Shown one piece after another: positions 26,685-63,731 of a DNA stretch of 64,000 nucleotides. Position numbers and translations under genes: made by a program. Position 1 is the first letter of the stretch, and each line of letters begins with the position of its first letter. The stretch lies in contig JNEU01001154.1 of NCBI GenBank assembly GCA_000697475.1, positions 62,001-126,000 on the forward strand, in the 5' to 3' direction. This stretch comes from Lichtheimia corymbifera B2541 (taxonomy: Eukaryota > Mucoromycota > Mucoromycetes > Mucorales > Lichtheimiaceae). Below the pieces are notes generated by a model. That model ran no database searches and was not told the origin of the DNA. It saw only the letters and a program-made list of their open reading frames with translations.

Positions 26685-27536
26685 AATGTTTCTTTTCTTT
26701 TTTATTGTAATTGTGTCCTGTGGTTGCATCATTGAATAAAGGCGTCTCTTAACATGGCAACGGGCAATGCTATTGACTAAGGGCATGCTGTTGGGTGACT
26801 AAATTACTTAACCAACGATGCCGACTCAGAAGGTGTATAGGGCATGGTCGTTTGTATTAACCGTAAACCTTGTGATTGTGCTAAATATCACAATGGCGCA
26901 ATGACAATGAGAAGATGATAACAATGAAACACTAAGGATCATCACAATATTACTAGCTAGATCGCTTACTCAATCATCAAAAAGAGGAGTGAGTTGCGTA
27001 TCACCTCTGAAAACAACATTTGTGCAAGATACATGATCCTTTCTCTTTGATCTGGTATTTACAAGCGGCAATAATTTTACAATTCAGCATTTGCCATATC
27101 GTAAATCTTCCTATAATACAATGGATCACATGCCAACCCAAGATGGGGATCAACTTAGAAAGAAGGAAAGCGTGATAGAAACTTAGAAGTGATTGATCAA
27201 TGTAAAGTCATATTTACTGAATAACTCTTTAATGATGCATGAGGTATAGACTGGGCACTAGAGCGAGTGGAGTACAATTCATGGCTCTAATGGGAGGTGC
27301 ATCGATATGGGGTGTTTCTATTTTTTGCGACATGTGGTGGCACTCGATGCATGGCGTGTCAAAACAAGAAATTGGATGATGATGGCTGTATGTATGCGGT
27401 TGATAGGCTGCATAAAGAACGACGATAATAGCTGCCATGGAATAGGGTGCACAGTACGATAATTGGATGCACCAGTATTTGAGGACGACAGCACCACAAC
27501 CAAGTTGACAACCGTTGCATAAGAGATTCACCGAAT
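26685..27536. other. Intergenic up to repeat element A
   Basis: Contains AATAAA at ~26733 for the agmatinase-like gene. Remaining ORFs on both strands are short and shadow the repeat margin. Nothing else seen. Confidence 0.5.
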
Positions 27537-29080
27537 GTCACCACCAGCCAAAGTCGAAAAAAAAAATTCGAGGGCGACCTGATTCCACTTTGGCTGGTGG
27601 TGACATTGGGTGAATCTGAGATCGGCCACGACGATCGTGAAACTTGCACCCAAGGTGCGCCTCACCACGCCGCACAGCTTTGTTCGATTGAAGAACCCAC
27701 GTTTCATTGTAGAATCTTGAGTTATGGACATCTTTAGGTTTTACATATGCTGTAACCATAACGATATATGACAAGTGGTCTTTGTTCATTGTCAAGTAGG
27801 TAGACCCTGATAGAGTGGAAAATGCACAGGGCCGTGCTTGTGTGACACAGCTCATTTGCATAATACTTCACAGTGAACAAACACCACTTACATATAGTAT
27901 CATGGTTTCAGCATATGTAAAAACGTAAAAGTGCCTGTATCTAAGATTGGCAAGCTTGATCGTGAAACATGATTGACAAGGTGCGCCCCACCACGACGAG
28001 CAATATTGTTCAATGAAAGAGCCCATGTTTCATTGTAAAGTTTTGAGATAAATGCACTTTCACGTTTTTACATATGCTGAAAACATGATGCTACATGACA
28101 AGTGGTGTTTGTTCATTGTGAAGTAGCTTGACCCTGATAGAGTGGAAGATGCACAGGGCCGTGCTTGGTGTGACACAGCTCATTTGTATGATACTTCATA
28201 GTGAACAAACACCATTTACATATAGTATCATGGTTTCAGCATATGTAAACACGTAAAATTTCCTGCATGTAGAGTTGGCAAGCTTGATCGGGGGAATGTG
28301 GTTGGAAAGGTGCGCTCCACCACGACGAGCAATATTGTTCAATGAAAGAGCCCATGCACTTTCACGTTTTTACATATGCTGAAAGCGTGATGCTATATGA
28401 CAAGTGGTGTTGTTCACTGTGAAGTATCATACAAATGAGCTGTGTCACACCAAGCACGGCCCTGTGCATCTTCCACTCTATCAGGGTCAAGCTACTTCAC
28501 AATGAACAAACACCACTTGTCATGTAGCATCATGTTTTCAGCATATGTAAAAACATGAAAGTGCATTTATCTCAAAACTTTACAATGAAACATGGGCTCT
28601 TTCATTGAACAATATTGCTCGTCGTGGTGGGGCGCACCTTGTCAATCGTGTTTCACGACCACGCTTGCCAATCTTCGATACATTCATGTTTGCGCTTTTA
28701 CATATGCTGAAACCATGATACTATATGTAAGTGGTGTTTGTTCACTGTGAAGTATTATGCAAATGAGCTGTGTCACACAAGCACGGCCCTGTGCATTTTC
28801 CACTCTATCAGGGTCTACCTACTTGACAATGAACAAAGACCACTTGTCATATATCGTTATGGTTACAGCATATGTAAAACCTAAAGATGTCCATAACTCA
28901 AGATTCTACAATGAAACGTGGGTTCTTCAATCGAACAAAGCTGTGCGGCGTGGTGAGGCGCACCTTGGGTGCAAGTTTCACGATCAGGCTCGCCGATCCT
29001 AGATTTCGCAATGTCACCACCAGCCAAAGTGAAAAAAATTCAAGAGGTCGACCTGATTCCACTTTGGCTGGTGGTGACAT
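27537..29080. repeat. Large foldback palindrome (element A left part)
   Basis: Left arm 27600-28215 reads as the reverse complement of right arm ~28410-29010, centred near 28309. Example: the left text around 28098-28213 (GTGGTGTTTGTTCATTGTG) returns inverted at ~28410-28520, and the mirrored ORFs at 27861-27538 (-) and 28757-29002 (+) start with the same peptide MQMSCVTQARPC. The ~200-bp centre has a third partial unit. Both ends carry a short inverted hairpin built on CACCACCAGCCAAAGT. No transposase ORF is present. Confidence 0.9.
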
Positions 29081-32045
29081 TGCGAAATCTAGGATCGGCG
29101 AGCCTGATCGTGAAACTTGCACCCAAGGTGCGCCTCACCACGCCGCGCAACTTTGTTCGATTGAAGAACCCACGTTTCATTGTAGAATCTTGAGTTATGG
29201 ACATCTTTAGGTTTTACATATGCTGTAGACGTGATGTTATATGGAGAGTGGTGTTTGTTCATTGTGAAGTATCATGCAAGTGAGCTGTGTTGCACAAAGA
29301 AGTCCGTCTGCATCTTCGGCTCTATCGGGGTCTACCTACTTGACAATGAACAAAGACCACTTGTCATATAGCATCACGTTTACAGCATATGTAAAACATA
29401 AAGGTGTCTGTATCTCCAAATCTCCATAATGATTTGTAGAGGCTTTATGAGAGCGATATTGATCAGCATGCCCGAGAGCACCTCCTGGCCAAGTTTCGGC
29501 GTCCTCACCAGCAATATCGGCGCGCACGGTCGTACACACTATTTATGTTTCCATCCATTTGTCGTCTCTCCCACATTCAAGGTTTTCATAATGAACTCTG
29601 GGGTCTTTATGGGAACGAAATTGCTCGGCATGGTGTAAAGGGTATTCTGTGAAAGTTTCAGGTTTGAGGTGGGCAATCTCGGCGAACAGGAGCGCCGACC
29701 CTACTTTTCCCTAAATTTGGGCTGGCCGGCATTCAAATGTTCATAATGAACCATGCGGTTTTTAAATGAATGGAGTTGATCAGAATGTGCGACAGTACCT
29801 TCTGACCAAGTTTCAAGTGCGAGATGGGGGATCCCAAGAAACTACATACTAAATGACTTTTTCATAAATCCGGCGCTTTCCCAATTTCCGCCCATCATAG
29901 TAAACCCCACATTATGCTCTCCCTTTCGAAATTTTAAAATGAAGTGTGGGTTCTTTATTAATACAAAGTTGTTCAGCATGACGTAAAGCATATTGTGTGC
30001 AATTTTCAGGTTTGAGAGAGGCAATCCCAATATCATGCATTGATATCAGTGTATATGGATATGTCTGACTGCCTGACAGATTTAATTTCCACCTCTTCCA
30101 CTCCCATTTTATTTCCCTCTTCTTCCCATTCTCAACTGTTGATGCATTCAAGTACAACCACAACCTGCGAACGATTATCCTGCTTCACTCCATCATGTCA
30201 ATGCTACGAAGGGCTTGATATGAAAGCCTTTGACTGAATGGCAAGTTCCATGGCGTGTACTCCCCGTTACAGCAACACTCGCATTCCTTGACACTGCACG
30301 TTCCCTTGTACACTCTTCTGCCACAACCAATCGTAACAGCATCATCCTAGCAGTTACTATTATCAAGGTCTTTACTCCATTGTCTCGAACAGCGTTTACA
30401 GCCTTGTCACTCTAGTGCAACACACGCGCTTGCACATTTCTCTGCGCGACCAAACGTACCAGCAGTTGCTATTAGCAAAGTCTGTACTCCCAGGTCCCAA
30501 GTTACTTGCAGCAACTTGCTTTGATACATACGGATTCAAATGATTTGATACCATATCATATATTAAATACACCGCAATACAAGCAATCTTCACCTCGTTG
30601 AGCTGCGATGGAAGACGAAGAATGCGATAGACCAACAGCCGGATGGAAAAGGGAGCATATCAGCAGCAATCACATGGTTATCTTTAACCAACATATTGGA
30701 TGTGATGGGTGGACGGAATCAAGTGCAGTGATGGGATATCCTGGAATGTTGCTTTGGTTACTTGGCGCATCATGCGCAGCAGCGATCACGTGGATACGGC
30801 TGAGGATGACGATGGATTGGATGAGATTGACAAAGTGGATTATATTTTGGCGAAAGGTGTTTTACAGTCATGGACGCTATTGGGAATACTCAAGTCATTG
30901 GATGCAGAATCTGCTTTACAATCATGGATGAAGATGTTTATGGCGGCAGCAACCAAGAACACAATGGCACGTTTATCACTGTTGGCTCCATGTTATTCAT
31001 CCGTAGCTTATTCAATCTACAATACTGTTCCTTTATCATACTTACTCGATAAATATCTACACTACCATATGCTATTTTTCGACTACATTTTTCATTGAAT
31101 TCAATATAATATTTAAGTAAAGAGCATCGTACAATCAATCATATGCGCATGATGTGAATCACTCTGGATTGAAAGGGGAATAGAAAATGGAAGGTTGGAA
31201 AGCGAGATTGAATCGTTTACATCAGCGTGTCGAGGTGCTTTTGTTCTTTTGTCATTGTAAAGCTTAGAGAAACAGGCACCTTTATGTTTTACATATGCTA
31301 TAAGCGTGATCCTATATGTCAAGTGGCTGGGCCTCAATAGAGCCGAACATGCAGAGCGGCGTGTTTGTGTAGCACATCTGTTTGGGGTGAACGGAAAGGG
31401 CCAATGTACGATCGTTAATGCACGATTCAGTGCCAGTCATAAATTGGCAGCCAACATACACTTTTTCCCGTTCCCGGCTTTTGCCCAATCCACTTGATGG
31501 GAATGATGCACCTGCTCCAGACATTTATTTCCATGATTCAATTATCTTGATCCGAGCTGATTTGACCGAGTTACGGTCAAAGAGGGAGCATATCAGCCCA
31601 TGCATACAGCATGCACTATCTATCTCAACTGGCGTTCTCTTAATTTGAGTGTAGCTCAGCCAAATCCGCTCGGATTAAGAAAGTTGAATGATGGAAATGA
31701 AAGTCTGTGTCGTGTTCAAGAATACTGATGATATATTATAGGTCACACAAACGTAGGACATGTGCATCCCTAATCGTGCTCGGTTATATGGGAACTATCC
31801 ATAGATATTAGATACCTTGTTCTTCTTCTCATTAAAGAATCTTACCGAGTCTCACTTGACATACTACGTTCCCATTTTATTTGATAACAACAACCGACCA
31901 CGACAGTCTGGAGCAGGAGCATCGTTTGCATGTCATAGAATGGATAACGGTGCCGATTGTGAGGAATTGGCTGTTAGCTGCCTATTCATGGCCTGTTCGG
32001 ATAGCATATAACATATCATCCATTGTCCCTTTCAGTCGTGGAAAA
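28868..32045 (+). mobile_element. Dispersed composite repeat, copy A (non-autonomous)
   Basis: Collinear and highly similar to 49690-52386. Landmarks shared: the hairpin near 29000-29100, the unit with GGAACGAAATTGCTCGGCAT (29612), the motif GATATGTCTGACTGCCTGAC (30057) and the text ending in CCCAATCCACTTGATGGG (~31483-31500). A ~490-bp block (about 31501-31989) exists here but not in copy B. No reverse transcriptase, integrase or transposase is visible. It contains a short stretch resembling coding DNA (30608-31000, DHVDTAEDDDGLDEID), possibly captured. Boundaries are approximate and no target-site duplication was found. Confidence 0.8.
28979..29113. repeat. Perfect inverted hairpin inside element A
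   Basis: GGCTCGCCGATCCTAGATTT-type text (28986 on) is repeated in reverse complement at ~29087-29106, with the CACCACCAGCCAAAGT half-motifs inward and a short AT/CG spacer (~29030-29050). Seen directly. Confidence 0.85.
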
Positions 32046-49330: not shown

Positions 49331-49689
49331 TGCATCATTTATTGCGGCGGGATTAGCGTCTATCAAGTCCGTGCACATCAATGCAGATCGACAGCTCCTC
49401 CTGGATTTGTGCAACCAATTCATGATTGACTCGCCTACCAAACATGTATTCATTGTCATTTTCTTTGTTATTGCAATACTACACACACCTTCATTATTGG
49501 AGGATGCTGTTTACTTGCGTACCTTCCTAAAGGCAATCATCAACATTATCCATTTGTGCAGCAACGTGTTAATCACGCGTATGTGTAACCACTACGTGCC
49601 ATTTTACTCAGCTCGGTCTTCATCTTTCAGTTAAAGCAGTCGACACATCCATTAGGAGGAAGCAGCTTCATCACCCTTATATGAGCCGT

Positions 49690-52386
49690 TCATATGTAAA
49701 TCATAAAGATATCTGTTATCTCTAAACTTTACAATGAAACGGGAGCTCTTTCATAGAGCAAAGTTGCTCGTCGGGGTGAAGCGCACCTTGGATGCAAGTT
49801 TCACGATCGTCGTGGCCGATCTCAGATTCACCCATTGTCACCACCAGCCTCGTCGAAAAAAAAAATTCAAGAGGTCGACCTGATCGACTTTGGCTGATGG
49901 TGACATTGGGTGAATCTGAGATCGGCCACGACGATCGTGAAACTTGCACACAAGGTGCGCCTCACCACGCCGCGCAACTTTGTTCGATTGAAGACCCCAT
50001 GTTTCATCGTAAAGTTTTGAGATACAGGCACCTTTATGTTTTACATATGCTGTAAGCGTGATGTTATATGGAGAGTGGTGTTTTTTCATTGTGAAGTATC
50101 ATGCAAATGAGCTGTGTTGCACAAAGAAGTCCGTCTGCATCTTCGGCTCTATCGGGGTCTACCTACTTGACAATGAACAAACACCACTTGTCATATAGCA
50201 TCACGCTTACAGCATATGTAAAAACATAAAGGTGCCTGTTTCTCCAAATTTCCATAATGATGTGTAGGGGCTTTATGAGAACGATGTTGATCAGCTTGCC
50301 CGAGAGCACCTCCTGACCAAGTTTCGAGGTCGCCATGGGTAATATCGGCGCGCACGGCCGCACGCCCTATTTATGTTACCATCCATTCATCGTCTCTCCC
50401 ACATTCAAGGTTTTCATAATGAACTCTGGGGTCTTTATGGGAACGAAATTGCTCGGCATGGTCGAAAGGGTATTCTGTGAAAGTTTCAGGTTTGAGGTGG
50501 GCAATCTCGGCGAACAGGAGCGCCGACCCTACTTTTCCCTAAATTTGGGCTGGCCGGCATTCAAAATGTTCATAATGAACCATGCGGTTTTTAAATGAAT
50601 CGAGTTGATCAGCATGTCCCAGAGAACCATCTGACCCAGTTTCAAGTGCGAGATGGGGAATCCCAAGAAACTACATACTAATTGACTTTTTCAAAAATCC
50701 GGCGCTTTCCTAATTTCCACCCGTCATAGTGAACCCCACATTATGCTCTCCTTTTCGAATTTTTCAAATGAAGTGTGGGTTCTTTATTAAGACAAAGTTG
50801 TTCAGCATTACCTAGAGCATATTGTGTGCAAGTTTCAGGTTCGAGACAGGCAATCCCAATATCATGCATTGATATCAGTGTATATGGATATGTCTGACTG
50901 CCTGACAGATTTAATTTCCACCTCTTCCACTCCCACTTATTTCCCTCTTCTTCCCATTCTCAACTGTTGATGCCTTCAAGTACAACTACCATCTACGAAC
51001 GATTGTCCTGCTTCACTCCACCATGTCAATGCTACGAAGGGCTTGATATGAAAGCCTTTGACTGAATGGCAAGTTCCATGGCGTATACTTCCCCACTACA
51101 GCAACACCTGCATTCCTTGACACTGCACGTTCCCTTGTACACTCTTCTGCCGCAACCAATCGTAACAGCATCATTCTAGCAGTTGTTATTAGCAAGGTCT
51201 TTTCTACATTGTCTCGAACAGCATGCACAGCCTTGCTACTCTACTACAACACACGCGCTGCACATTTCTCTGCCGCAACCAAACGTAGCAACCGTTGCTA
51301 TTAGCAAAGTCTTTACTCCCATGTCCCAAGTTACTTGCAGCAACTTGCTTTGATACATACGGATTCAAATGGATTTGATACCATATCATATATCAAGTAC
51401 ACCGCAATACAAGCACTCTTCACCTTGTTGAGCTACGATGGAAGACGAAGAATGCAATAGACCAACAGCTGGATGGAAAAGGGCGCATATCAGCAGCAAT
51501 CACATGGCTATCTTTAAACCAACATATTGGATTTGATGGGTGGTTGGAATCAAGTGCAGTGATGAGATATCCTGGAATGTTACGTTGGTTACTTGGTGTA
51601 TCATGCGCAGCAACGATCACGTGGATTCTGCTGAGGATGACGATGGATTGGATGAGATTGACGAAGTGGATTACAGTCATGGACGCTATTGGGAATACTC
51701 AAGTCAATGCATGCAGCATCTGCGTTACAATCATGGATGAAGATGTTCATGGCGGCAGCAACCAAGAATACAATGGCACGTTTATCCCTGTTGACTCCAT
51801 GTGGTTCATCCGTAGCTTATTCAATTTACATACTGTTCCTTTATCATACTTGCTCGATAAACTACCATGTGCTATGATTCTTCGATTACATATTTCATTG
51901 AATTCAATATAGTATTTAAGTAAAGAGCATTGTACAATCAATTCATATACGCATGATGTGAATCACTTGGTTCATTTCTGGATTGAAAGGGGAATAGAAA
52001 ATGGAAGGTTGGAAAGCAAGATTGGATCGTTTACATCAGCGTGTCGAGGTGCTTTTGTTCTTTTGTCATTGTAAAGTTTAGAGATACAGGCACCTTTATG
52101 TTTTACATATGCTATAAGCGTGATGATATATGTCAAGTGGCTGGATCTCAATAGAGCTGAACATGCAGAGCGGCGTGTTTGTGTATCACATCTGTTTGGG
52201 GTGAACAGAAAGGGCGAATGCTTAATGGTTAATGGACGATTCAGTGCCAGTCATAAATTGGCAGCCAACATACACTTTTTCCCGTTCACGACTTTTGCCC
52301 AATCCACTTGATGGGGATGATGCCAAGGCCTGTTCCGGATAGCACATAACATATCATCCATTGTCCCTTTCAGCCATGGAAAAGTA
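49690..52386 (+). mobile_element. Dispersed composite repeat, copy B
   Basis: Same orientation and order as 28868-32045, lacking the ~490-bp segment next to its 3' end. Its left hairpin (49800-49941) is an inverted pair around the CACCACCAGCC motif with a poly-A spacer. It starts inside the element, with no foldback arm to its left; the AT-rich flank 49640-49690 shows no further homology. Differences to copy A are point changes and small indels throughout, so the copies are not recent identical duplicates. Confidence 0.8.
49798..49942. repeat. Inverted hairpin inside element B
   Basis: CACGATCGTCGTGGCCGATC on the left is mirrored on the right (~49921-49940), enclosing a poly-A spacer (~49857-49866). 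It corresponds to the hairpin of copy A. Confidence 0.85.
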
Positions 52387-52635
52387 ACTCAAAAGCAGAA
52401 ATAAAAACTAATTTTTTATTCGCTTAGTAATGATACGCCTTGAAAAGTCTAGGATAGGATGAAAAGGTGAGAAAATGGTACTACGCTAATGCACAAGAAC
52501 GAAGATCCATTTCATGCAATTGTCGATGACTGAGCGAAATCTTGAGTTACACCAGCGACTGGGATAAAGTTTAGTAATCAAAGGAACGCGTAGTAGACAG
52601 CGTTTCTTTCTCCTTTACCTGCATACAACGCCAAT

Positions 52636-60647: not shown

Positions 60648-61734
60648 ATGACTAAATATCCTACCTACGACGAATTACCTATTGCCCCGTCGTCCCCGCC
60701 ACATACTGCTTGGGGCGTTTTTGGGAAGGATGACAATTTGGGTACCCTCAACCTGCTGACTGAAGAAATAGCAGCCAAGGTAGGTTTAGTGAAATAGCAA
60801 AGAGAGGGGCACCAAAGGTGACTTTATGCTTTCATTAGGCAGCCCAAGAGAATGTAAAGCGAGGCGCTGTCTTTTCGCTAAATTGGCATCTTGAATCACC
60901 CTCACCACCACTATTCAACCGTACTTCAATCCAACACCATATTCGTGACCGTGGTAGCAGCAAGAAGTTTGATGATGTCTATGACAATTTTAATACTCAA
61001 AGCAGCACGCAATTCGATGGATTGCGCCATGTATGCCACATGAGCTCAGGACGCTTCTACAACAATGTGTCAGCGGACGACATTGTAGGACCTAATAGTA
61101 CTGGGCGGCTTGGCATCCATCACATGGCTCAACGAGGCATTGCTGGTCGTGGCGTGTTGCTCGATTATGGAAGATGGTGTGAGCGTAATGGGAAGCAAGT
61201 CAATCCTCTTAGTCGCCATGTTATCACTGTGAATGAGCTTGAGCAGGTTGCTAAAGATCAAGAGGTGGAATTCCAGAAGGGAGATATCTTATTATTGCGT
61301 ACAGGATGGATGGCAGCATATGAGCGTGAAGGAGATCGTCTTTCGGATATCATGGATCTTGCCAAACCTGAATGCATTGGTGTAGAAGCGTGCCAAGACA
61401 CGTATCGCTGGGTGTGGAATAACCGTTTTGCAGCCGTTGCTGGTGACCATGTCGCATTTGAAGCCTTTCCACCAAAAGATTGGAATGATTCATGTCGTGA
61501 GTATCAATGTATTTTATCCTGTGTTTGCGTGAACTTGGTTAACAAAATGTCGTTGCTATTGTAGACGCTCAATTCCTTGGTGGTTTTGGAATGCCTATAG
61601 GAGAAATGTTTTATCTCGAAAAGCTCGCAGAAGACTGCGCCAAAGATGGTCGATATACCTGCCTATTCACAAGTGCCCCTCTTAACAAATATCAAGGTGT
61701 GGCAACCCCACCTAATGCATTATGCATGAAATAA
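60648..61734 (+). CDS. Cyclase-family (PF04199-like) protein, copy 1
   Basis: Exons 60648-60779, 60839-61496 and 61565-61734 give 319 aa. Family text: WGVFGKDDNLGTLNLLTEE, NTQSSTQFDGLRHVCHMSS, LGIHHMAQRGIAGRGVLLDY, GDILLLRTGWMAAYERE, and the end FGMPIGEMFYLEKLAED with LNKYQGVATPPNAL. In bacterial kynurenine formamidases the metal site is HxGTHxDxPxH; here it is replaced by QFDGLRHVCH, as in the fungal branch of the cyclase family. It may hydrolyse or cyclise an amide or hydroxy acid; substrate unknown. Tandem with a second copy 0.9 kb downstream. Confidence 0.85.
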
Positions 61735-62634: not shown

Positions 62635-63731
62635 ATGACCAAGCTTCCTGCTTACGACGACTTGCCTATTGACCCTACCAATGCACCTGATTCTAGCGCA
62701 TGGGGAGTTTTTGGAGAGGATGATAATTTGGGCACTCTCAACCTGTTGACGGAGGAGCGAGTTGCCAAGGTACGTTTATTAGGATGATTGAATAATAAAG
62801 AGGGTTAACATTGATCATCTTGTTGTAGGCAGCTCAAGACAACGTGAAGCGTGGTGCTGTATTCTCGCTCAACTGGAAACTCGAGTTGCCATGTCCACCA
62901 CCACATAACCGTGAAGCGATCCAACACCGCATCCGTGATCGATTTGAAAACAAAGGATTTGGCGCCGTTCACAACAACTGGTTTGATGATGTTATCGAAA
63001 TAAACACCCAGTCATCTTCGCAGTGGGATGGATTACTCCATGTTGGCAATATGGAAACTGGGAAATTTTACAATGGAGTATCACCTGATGCTCTTTCACA
63101 GGAGCAACATTCCCATCGCCTTGGTATCCATCACATGGCACGCCGTGGTATTGCAGGACGCGCTGTTTTGCTTGATTACGAGCGATGGGCTATCAAGCAA
63201 GGAAAGCAAATTGACCCATTCACATGCCATGCCATCACGGTTGATGAACTCAAACAAGTCGCAAAGGATCAACATGTTGAATTTATGCCTGGGGATATCT
63301 TGCTGCTGCGTACCGGATGGATGGCTGCATATGAACGCGATAGCAAGGCAGTGGATTTCGAAAACCTCCACTGCATTGGTGTCGAGGCATCTGAAAGCAT
63401 GTATCGCTTTATCTGGGATAATCACTTTGCAGCTGTTGCTAGTGATAACGTTGCATTTGAAGCTTTTCCAACCAAGGATTGGACCAATTCATGCCGTGAG
63501 TACTTGTGATCACGTACACAAAAACCCATGTATTCATTAGCAGCCTCTGCTTTGTATGTAGACACTCATTTTCTTGCTGGATTTGGAATGCCCATTGGTG
63601 AAATGTTTTATCTCGAAAAGCTCGCAGATGATTGTGCCAACGATGGTCGATATTCATGCTTTTTCACAAGTGCCCCTCTTAACAAGTATCAAGGCGTGGC
63701 AACCCCTCCCAATGCCTTGGCCCTGAAATAG
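62635..63731 (+). CDS. Cyclase-family (PF04199-like) protein, copy 2
   Basis: Exons 62635-62769, 62829-63495 and 63562-63731 give 323 aa with the same intron positions and phases as copy 1. Close protein similarity throughout: MTKLPAYDDLPIDPTNAPD, WGVFGEDDNLGTLNLLTEE, HNNWFDDVIEINTQSSSQWD, LLHVGNMETGKFYNGVS, LGIHHMARRGIAGRAVLLDY. The His after HV in copy 1 (HVCH) is Asn here (HVGN), which might change metal binding or substrate. The start at 62635 is chosen over the upstream in-frame Met at 62512 because it aligns with copy 1. Confidence 0.85.

Follow-up and report, generated by a model that had tools for sequence, protein, structure and literature searches.

The palindrome at 27534-29081 of the window is quite likely one cassette of a dispersed, non-coding, foldback-like repeat family of Lichtheimia corymbifera that is used as an insertion target by LINEs and their ORF1-only relatives. 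The window is the whole stretch of 64,000 nucleotides that was analysed (62001-126000 of contig C416), and the genome searched was the 34,979,012-base assembly of 432 contigs.

Structure of the palindrome and its modules

Alignment of 27534-29081 with its own reverse complement gave 1577 columns at 89.9% identity, which bears out the foldback palindrome of about 1.5 kb that the first-pass annotation had described. Its inverted arms of 653 nt (27613-28265 / 28353-29005) are 95% complementary and enclose a gap of 87 nt, so the centre at 28309 falls where the annotation had placed it. The terminal hairpins reported there are also present, because the motif CACCACCAGCCAAAGT has four exact occurrences in the window, at 27539 (+), 27587 (-), 29015 (+) and 29061 (-), which pair as two hairpin caps. 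With up to 3 mismatches allowed, the window holds seven matches to this motif where 0.67 would be expected, and three of the seven lie outside the palindrome. The DNA fold of the right hairpin (28990-29100) reaches -54.1 kcal/mol, with a z of -16.4 over 200 shuffles. As the annotation had also stated, the palindrome carries no transposase-like frame, and the open reading frames that overlap it (searched from 80 aa upwards) measure 81-107 aa. Coding arms were ruled out because the frames in the window copy are short. A known non-coding RNA was ruled out as well: the five Rfam matches, to microRNA precursor families, were all below the gathering score and are expectable for long hairpins.

Each arm contains a tandem repeat of about 327 bp, which consists of a linker L and an inverted-repeat unit H of about 185 bp. 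The order of the palindrome is P-L-H-L-H-(centre)-H'-L'-H'-L'-P, the modules alternate in orientation, and hairpin P is the meeting point of two inverted L modules (Table 1). Five H units with both feet (TTTTACATATGCTG / CAGCATATGTAAAA) lie between 27739 and 29396, with starts at 27739, 28066, 28368, 28696 and 29212. At the left P of the window, the left flank scores 14 against L and the right flank 240; family homology ends at 27524, the foot of P, and thus the outer left arm is missing in the window copy. On the right, the family extends from the palindrome to about 31.7 kb, and several other copies have the outer arm on both sides. The palindrome is not self-contained, as a further L-H unit and a longer arm run on to about 31.7 kb. 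The first-pass annotation had described neither the P/L/H order nor the retrotransposons that are targeted to it.

The window contains another family copy, which matches the first at 89.7% (28869-31509 against 49691-52323), and both copies sit between long open frames. The first ~410 nt of the stretch that the second copy lacks have inverted ends (CCTGCTCCAGAC / GTCTGGAGCAGG). The stretch is partly common to loci L031, L033 and L035, and in L031 and L033 parts of it form another palindromic module. We set aside a plain nested MITE as its explanation, because the parts recur joined to 31252-31509 in L031 and L033.

Table 1 Features of the repeat family in the window
Feature	Positions	Strand	Remark
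Left hairpin P	27524..27617		arms 27524-27558 / 27583-27617
Linker module L1	27618..27738	+	limits by eye, between P and H
LINE target site AAGTTTCACGATC, unoccupied	27633..27645	-	equivalents occupied elsewhere
Inverted-repeat module H1	27739..27922		feet TTTTACATATGCTG / CAGCATATGTAAAA
Module H2	28066..28250		
Palindrome centre	28266..28352		87-nt spacer, a partial L module
Module H2'	28368..28552		mirror of H2
Module H1'	28696..28879		mirror of H1
LINE target site AAGTTTCACGATC, unoccupied	28973..28985	+	in module L1'
Right hairpin P	29010..29081		joins inverted L modules on either side
LINE target site, unoccupied	29106..29118	-	L module right of P
Fifth H module	29212..29396		beyond the palindrome first annotated
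Outer right arm of the family	29397..31707	+	diverged L-like repeats at 29584-29678 and 29932-30026
477-nt stretch	31510..31986		absent at 52323/52324 in the second copy
Second family copy	49466..52389	+	one P hairpin (49837-49904); target sites 49796 (+) and 49933 (-)

Elsewhere in the window, direct repeats of about 1.1 kb that are 67% identical (60648-61733 / 62635-63730) hold related long frames and are probably a tandem gene pair. A methyltransferase frame of the window has 14 matches, the best at 98%; Lichtheimia is not among the 8 matches with a named organism, all of which we take to be Mucorales. The GC content of the window is 43.6%. The L. corymbifera genome is given as 33.6 Mb with a GC content of 43.4% and 4.7% repeats in the genome paper (PMC4133162).

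Copies across the genome and their age

The genome-wide search for the palindrome, which the first-pass annotation had proposed as a check, recovered a dispersed repeat family. At least 351 matches were obtained, a lower bound because only 40 of the 740 candidate places were scored. Contig C416 (311,807 bp) has family matches near 2, 90, 113, 214 and 310 kb. Several contigs end inside the repeat or its LINEs (for example, both ends of C416, C308, C334 and C269), which probably means that the family interrupts the assembly and that its count is too low.

We compared 21 loci, namely the window and 20 stretches of up to 10 kb, which are a biased sample since they were picked as the best hits to the palindrome. 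Hairpin P occurs in all 21. The spacing between successive P hairpins is 1475-1508 bp in 13 loci and 512-522 bp in eight (nine spacings); the other spacings within loci are 1026, 1771, 1835, 2147, 2482 and 2835. L modules with a score of at least 50, scored without shuffles, flank 44 of the 50 P hairpins on both sides, and in the remaining six a LINE is inserted (L024, L037), the contig ends (L030) or the copy is shortened (L031, L036 and the window). The longest self-complementary stretch, in L038, has 6137 columns at 81.3%. A form of hairpin P that is more symmetric than that of the window, a perfect palindrome of 60 bp, lies at C408:167349-167408.

The edges of the cassette are less regular. 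Comparison by eye among the inspected copies, in which the true ends may have gone undetected, gave no convincing terminus or target duplication common to them; the edges are ragged, with isolated shared ends only (49466 with L027 6640, and L028 2397 with L030 6292). A Pfam scan of seven long frames taken from the 20 loci showed no transposase: two have a zinc knuckle, one a HET domain, two a copper amine oxidase domain, and two are without a match. The frame with the HET (heterokaryon incompatibility) domain, at L022 2522-3241, lies beside a palindrome locus. MITEs are under about 0.8 kb and have terminal inverted repeats and a target duplication, whereas the cassette measures about 1.5 kb and its arrays up to about 6 kb; like the first annotator, we recognised no described MITE family. 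Nor are there the long head-to-tail arrays of a satellite, the arrays being short, dispersed and of alternating orientation. The long, internally tandem inverted repeats of foldback elements are found here, both in the 653-nt arms with their repeats of ~327 bp and in the 6137 columns of L038. A Lichtheimia-specific expansion of HET-type genes is mentioned in the genome paper (PMC4133162).

For an estimate of age, 43 arms covering at least 560 nt of the query were cut out and used for a tree and for pairwise identities. Arms from different loci are 83.1% identical on average (sd 5.3, maximum 91.9%, n=879), and the 24 pairs within loci have a median of 87.0% (range 66.8-98.3%). Four of these 24 pairs are direct and not inverted (L035, L028, one of L038 and one of L036); the 20 inverted pairs are 76.1-98.3% identical, that is, their arms differ by 2-24%. 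The nearest neighbour lies in the same locus for only 13 of 42 arms, and the tree is nearly star-like, with unsettled bootstrap. Judged from these alignments, the architecture of the cassette is old, and its arms have been homogenised or rebuilt only occasionally. The arm pair of the window (96.0%) and that of L024 (98.3%) exceed every pair between loci, which indicates for the window that its copy was recently homogenised or re-duplicated. The recent event suggested by the first-pass annotation thus applies to the window copy and not to the family, which is old and nearly star-like.

LINE-like elements at sites in the repeat

Open frames with a zinc knuckle (PF00098) were found in two of the 20 loci, L037 (5908-7173) and L024 (2485-3612). 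Both elements start directly after ...GTGCAAGTTTCACGATC and end with a short 3' region, a poly-A and AAGTTTCACGATC again. They are retroelements that carry ORF1 alone, followed by a 3' tail and poly-A of their own, and they extend from 5977 to about 7320 in L037 and from 2515 to about 3860 in L024. The two ORF1s each have 99-100% identical copies at other places, and their sequences suggest that these elements were recently mobile with help from elsewhere (in trans). Among the matches to the two ORF1 families, 11 of 12 for one and 6 of 8 for the other are assigned to L. corymbifera or L. ornata.

All genome matches to the two ORF1 queries that begin at query residue 1 or 2 were collected. They comprise 26 loci, all kin of these queries; L037 and L024 had been picked through palindrome loci, and the other 24 came through ORF1 homology. 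Matches starting further in were left out, as was C165, whose match begins at residue 9 with 17 nt left before the end of the contig. Over the 37 to about 164 nt of upstream DNA compared per locus, all 26 have the repeat family immediately ahead of their ATG. The junctions lie at L in 17 loci, at P in six (C364, C115, C315, C118, C74, C224), at H in two (C421, C65) and at an L-like equivalent of the outer arm in one (C286, window equivalent about 29503). The 17 L-site loci are on C335, C367, C402, C212, C276 (twice), C221, C408, C381, C237, C392, C268 (twice), C201, C132, C266 and C210, of which those on C266 and C210 are identical over 40 nt at their ends and could represent a single copy. 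The L site is 13 bp long, AAGTTTCACGATC or a close variant (AACTTTCACGATC in C408, AAGTTTCATGATC in C212, AAGTTTCACGATG in the second C276 copy), and the plus-strand copy of C268 has only AAGTTTCAC of it; the distance from this target to the ATG is 1-9 nt. The upstream matches score 111-193 in 13 loci against a shuffle maximum of 38, 55-97 in eight loci against at most 30 in shuffle and window controls, and 32-58 in five loci against at most 30 in controls; the weakest is C224, with 32 against at most 25. In C364, C115 and C315 the local alignment stops inside P and the remainder was assigned by eye, and in C221, where the best local alignment stops short of the junction, the last part was likewise assigned by eye.

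The 3' ends agree with this picture. All ten that were read pass from poly-A into the repeat, eight at L and two at H, although four of them (C202, C314, C233, C311) were found by patterns containing the target and hence do not test specificity. All six ORF1 copies for which both ends were read (C335, C367, C402, C212, C276, C221) have the target, AAGTTTCAYGATC, on each side of the insert. Past the poly-A tail, the 13 bp found just before the element appear a second time and the repeat resumes in register. Across the genome, poly-A followed by AAGTTTCAYGATC of the L site was found 12 times against 0 for the reversed pattern, and poly-A followed by the H site twice against 0, while the P site gave 0 against 0. 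Two further LINE tails of another kind lie at the L site (C202:120-420 and C314:17560-17840, loci L058 and L059); no ORF1 or RVT_1 match is listed on either contig.

A candidate autonomous partner was found for the H site. The genome has 97 profile matches to RVT_1 and 27 to PF03372, and the one on C233 is the single match among the 97 whose element was linked to the repeat through its 3' end. There, an APE-like PF03372 domain and RVT_1 (PF00078) share a frame of 1287 aa upstream of the poly-A junction, and the 3' end of the element meets an H module; no ORF1 match was found on C233 with the two ORF1 queries. On C263, PF03372 and RVT_1 share a frame of 1296 aa that adjoins an ORF1 match. RVT_1 lies downstream, on the same strand, of the P-sited ORF1s of C115 and C364, whose 5' junctions were read, and of the H-sited ORF1 of C65, where the RVT_1 match is shorter and possibly belongs to a different type. 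Endonuclease and reverse transcriptase are thus joined to the repeat at the H site of C233, and the L-site copies read whole (L024, L037) are ORF1-only; no single copy was read whole with ORF1, RT and both junctions.

Target-specific LINEs (R1, R2, SART/TRAS and the Tx1 group) are the closest likeness of the inserted elements, which also have exact, defined sites in a multicopy sequence, a poly-A and a target duplication, and on the one H-site element tied to RT an APE-like endonuclease. What sets the inserted elements apart is their dispersed, palindromic target, which offers at least three sites, together with a fungal host, ORF1-only members and virtually no 5' leader. LINEs with RNA genes, microsatellites, telomeric repeats or transposons as their target belong mainly to the early-branching, Tx1 and R1 groups (PMC4640811; for Tx1, PMC3747384), and LINE/L1 elements have been reported from other Mucoromycotina (PMC7928374). 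The centromere-associated Grem-LINE1 elements of Mucor are likewise mucoralean LINEs in a repeat-rich compartment (PMC7377519), whereas the target found here is dispersed and defined by sequence. Among the open-access papers listed by our literature searches, none was seen to deal with this repeat, with LINEs directed to it or with a dispersed fungal palindrome that has several LINE sites.

Alternative explanations and significance

The foldback transposons FB, Galileo and Tetris of Drosophila and Tm1 of nematodes likewise have long, partly tandem inverted repeats, are dispersed and show no coding capacity. These same traits, as given for Tetris (PMC4079207), would allow the family to be a non-autonomous foldback DNA transposon and nothing else, entered by LINEs because it is abundant, AT-rich or silenced. 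We regard this as unlikely, since the insertions occupy few exact positions, 17 of the 26 sharing a single 13-bp site or a near variant of it, and since neither a target duplication nor a common terminus of the repeat was found in the inspected copies. Tetris and Tm1 have a target duplication of 8-10 bp (PMC4079207, PMC3169594), and the cassette has no detected duplication of that size; it also differs from the foldback transposons in a hairpin P that recurs at steps of 0.52 or 1.5 kb and in being a LINE target. With its ragged edges, it is therefore not filed as a foldback transposon despite its looks, although non-autonomous transposition of the foldback type is our likeliest guess as to how it spread.

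The remaining explanations have still less to recommend them. A pericentromeric or structural inverted-repeat satellite colonised by LINEs would be modular and partly tandem, as this family is, and LINE1-like elements are abundant at Mucor centromeres (PMC7377519); we nevertheless find it improbable, given short arrays of alternating orientation, the dispersal along C416 and the position of the window copies between long frames. More improbable still is that the repeat serves the LINEs as their 5' untranslated and promoter region, the palindromes being LINE debris. This would explain why it stands directly upstream of all 26 ORF1 starts, but the 13-bp target and the in-register repeat after the poly-A (6 of 6) are a target duplication, copies with ORF1s that are 99-100% identical have different sequences upstream, and the ORF1s are joined to three different modules. 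As for an assembly artefact, about which the first-pass annotation was concerned, or a single recent inverted duplication, the window arms are indeed more alike than any pair between loci. Yet many contigs carry the same cassette, its arms diverged and its hairpin spacing near-constant, and the window arms differ at about 4-5% of positions, unlike the perfect palindrome expected from a chimeric read; we give this explanation hardly any credence.

We return to a foldback-like family that LINEs would use as their target. The LINE endonuclease would recognise an L, P or H site, nick it and reverse transcribe the element into the site, and insertion into the repeat would keep the LINEs away from genes. 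Because the inserted copies begin at the ATG with almost no leader, their transcription would probably start in the repeat upstream, which may supply a promoter to the L-site copies. Arm-to-arm gene conversion or re-duplication would probably make the arms alike now and then, as in the window copy and L024. We also consider, as a possible though doubtful extension, that the cassette supplies the target, the promoter and perhaps a hairpin RNA (a source of small RNAs restraining its guests), that the LINEs, which lack a leader, need it in order to insert and to be transcribed, and that several LINE lineages divide the L, P and H modules among themselves as niches. In this fungus, several ORF1 lineages use at least three sites within a single dispersed palindrome family. 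Retrotransposons restricted to a single harmless repeat are models for the coexistence of selfish DNA with its host and for targeted gene insertion, and the many natural copies of this family allow the stability of kilobase palindromes and the homogenisation between their arms to be measured.
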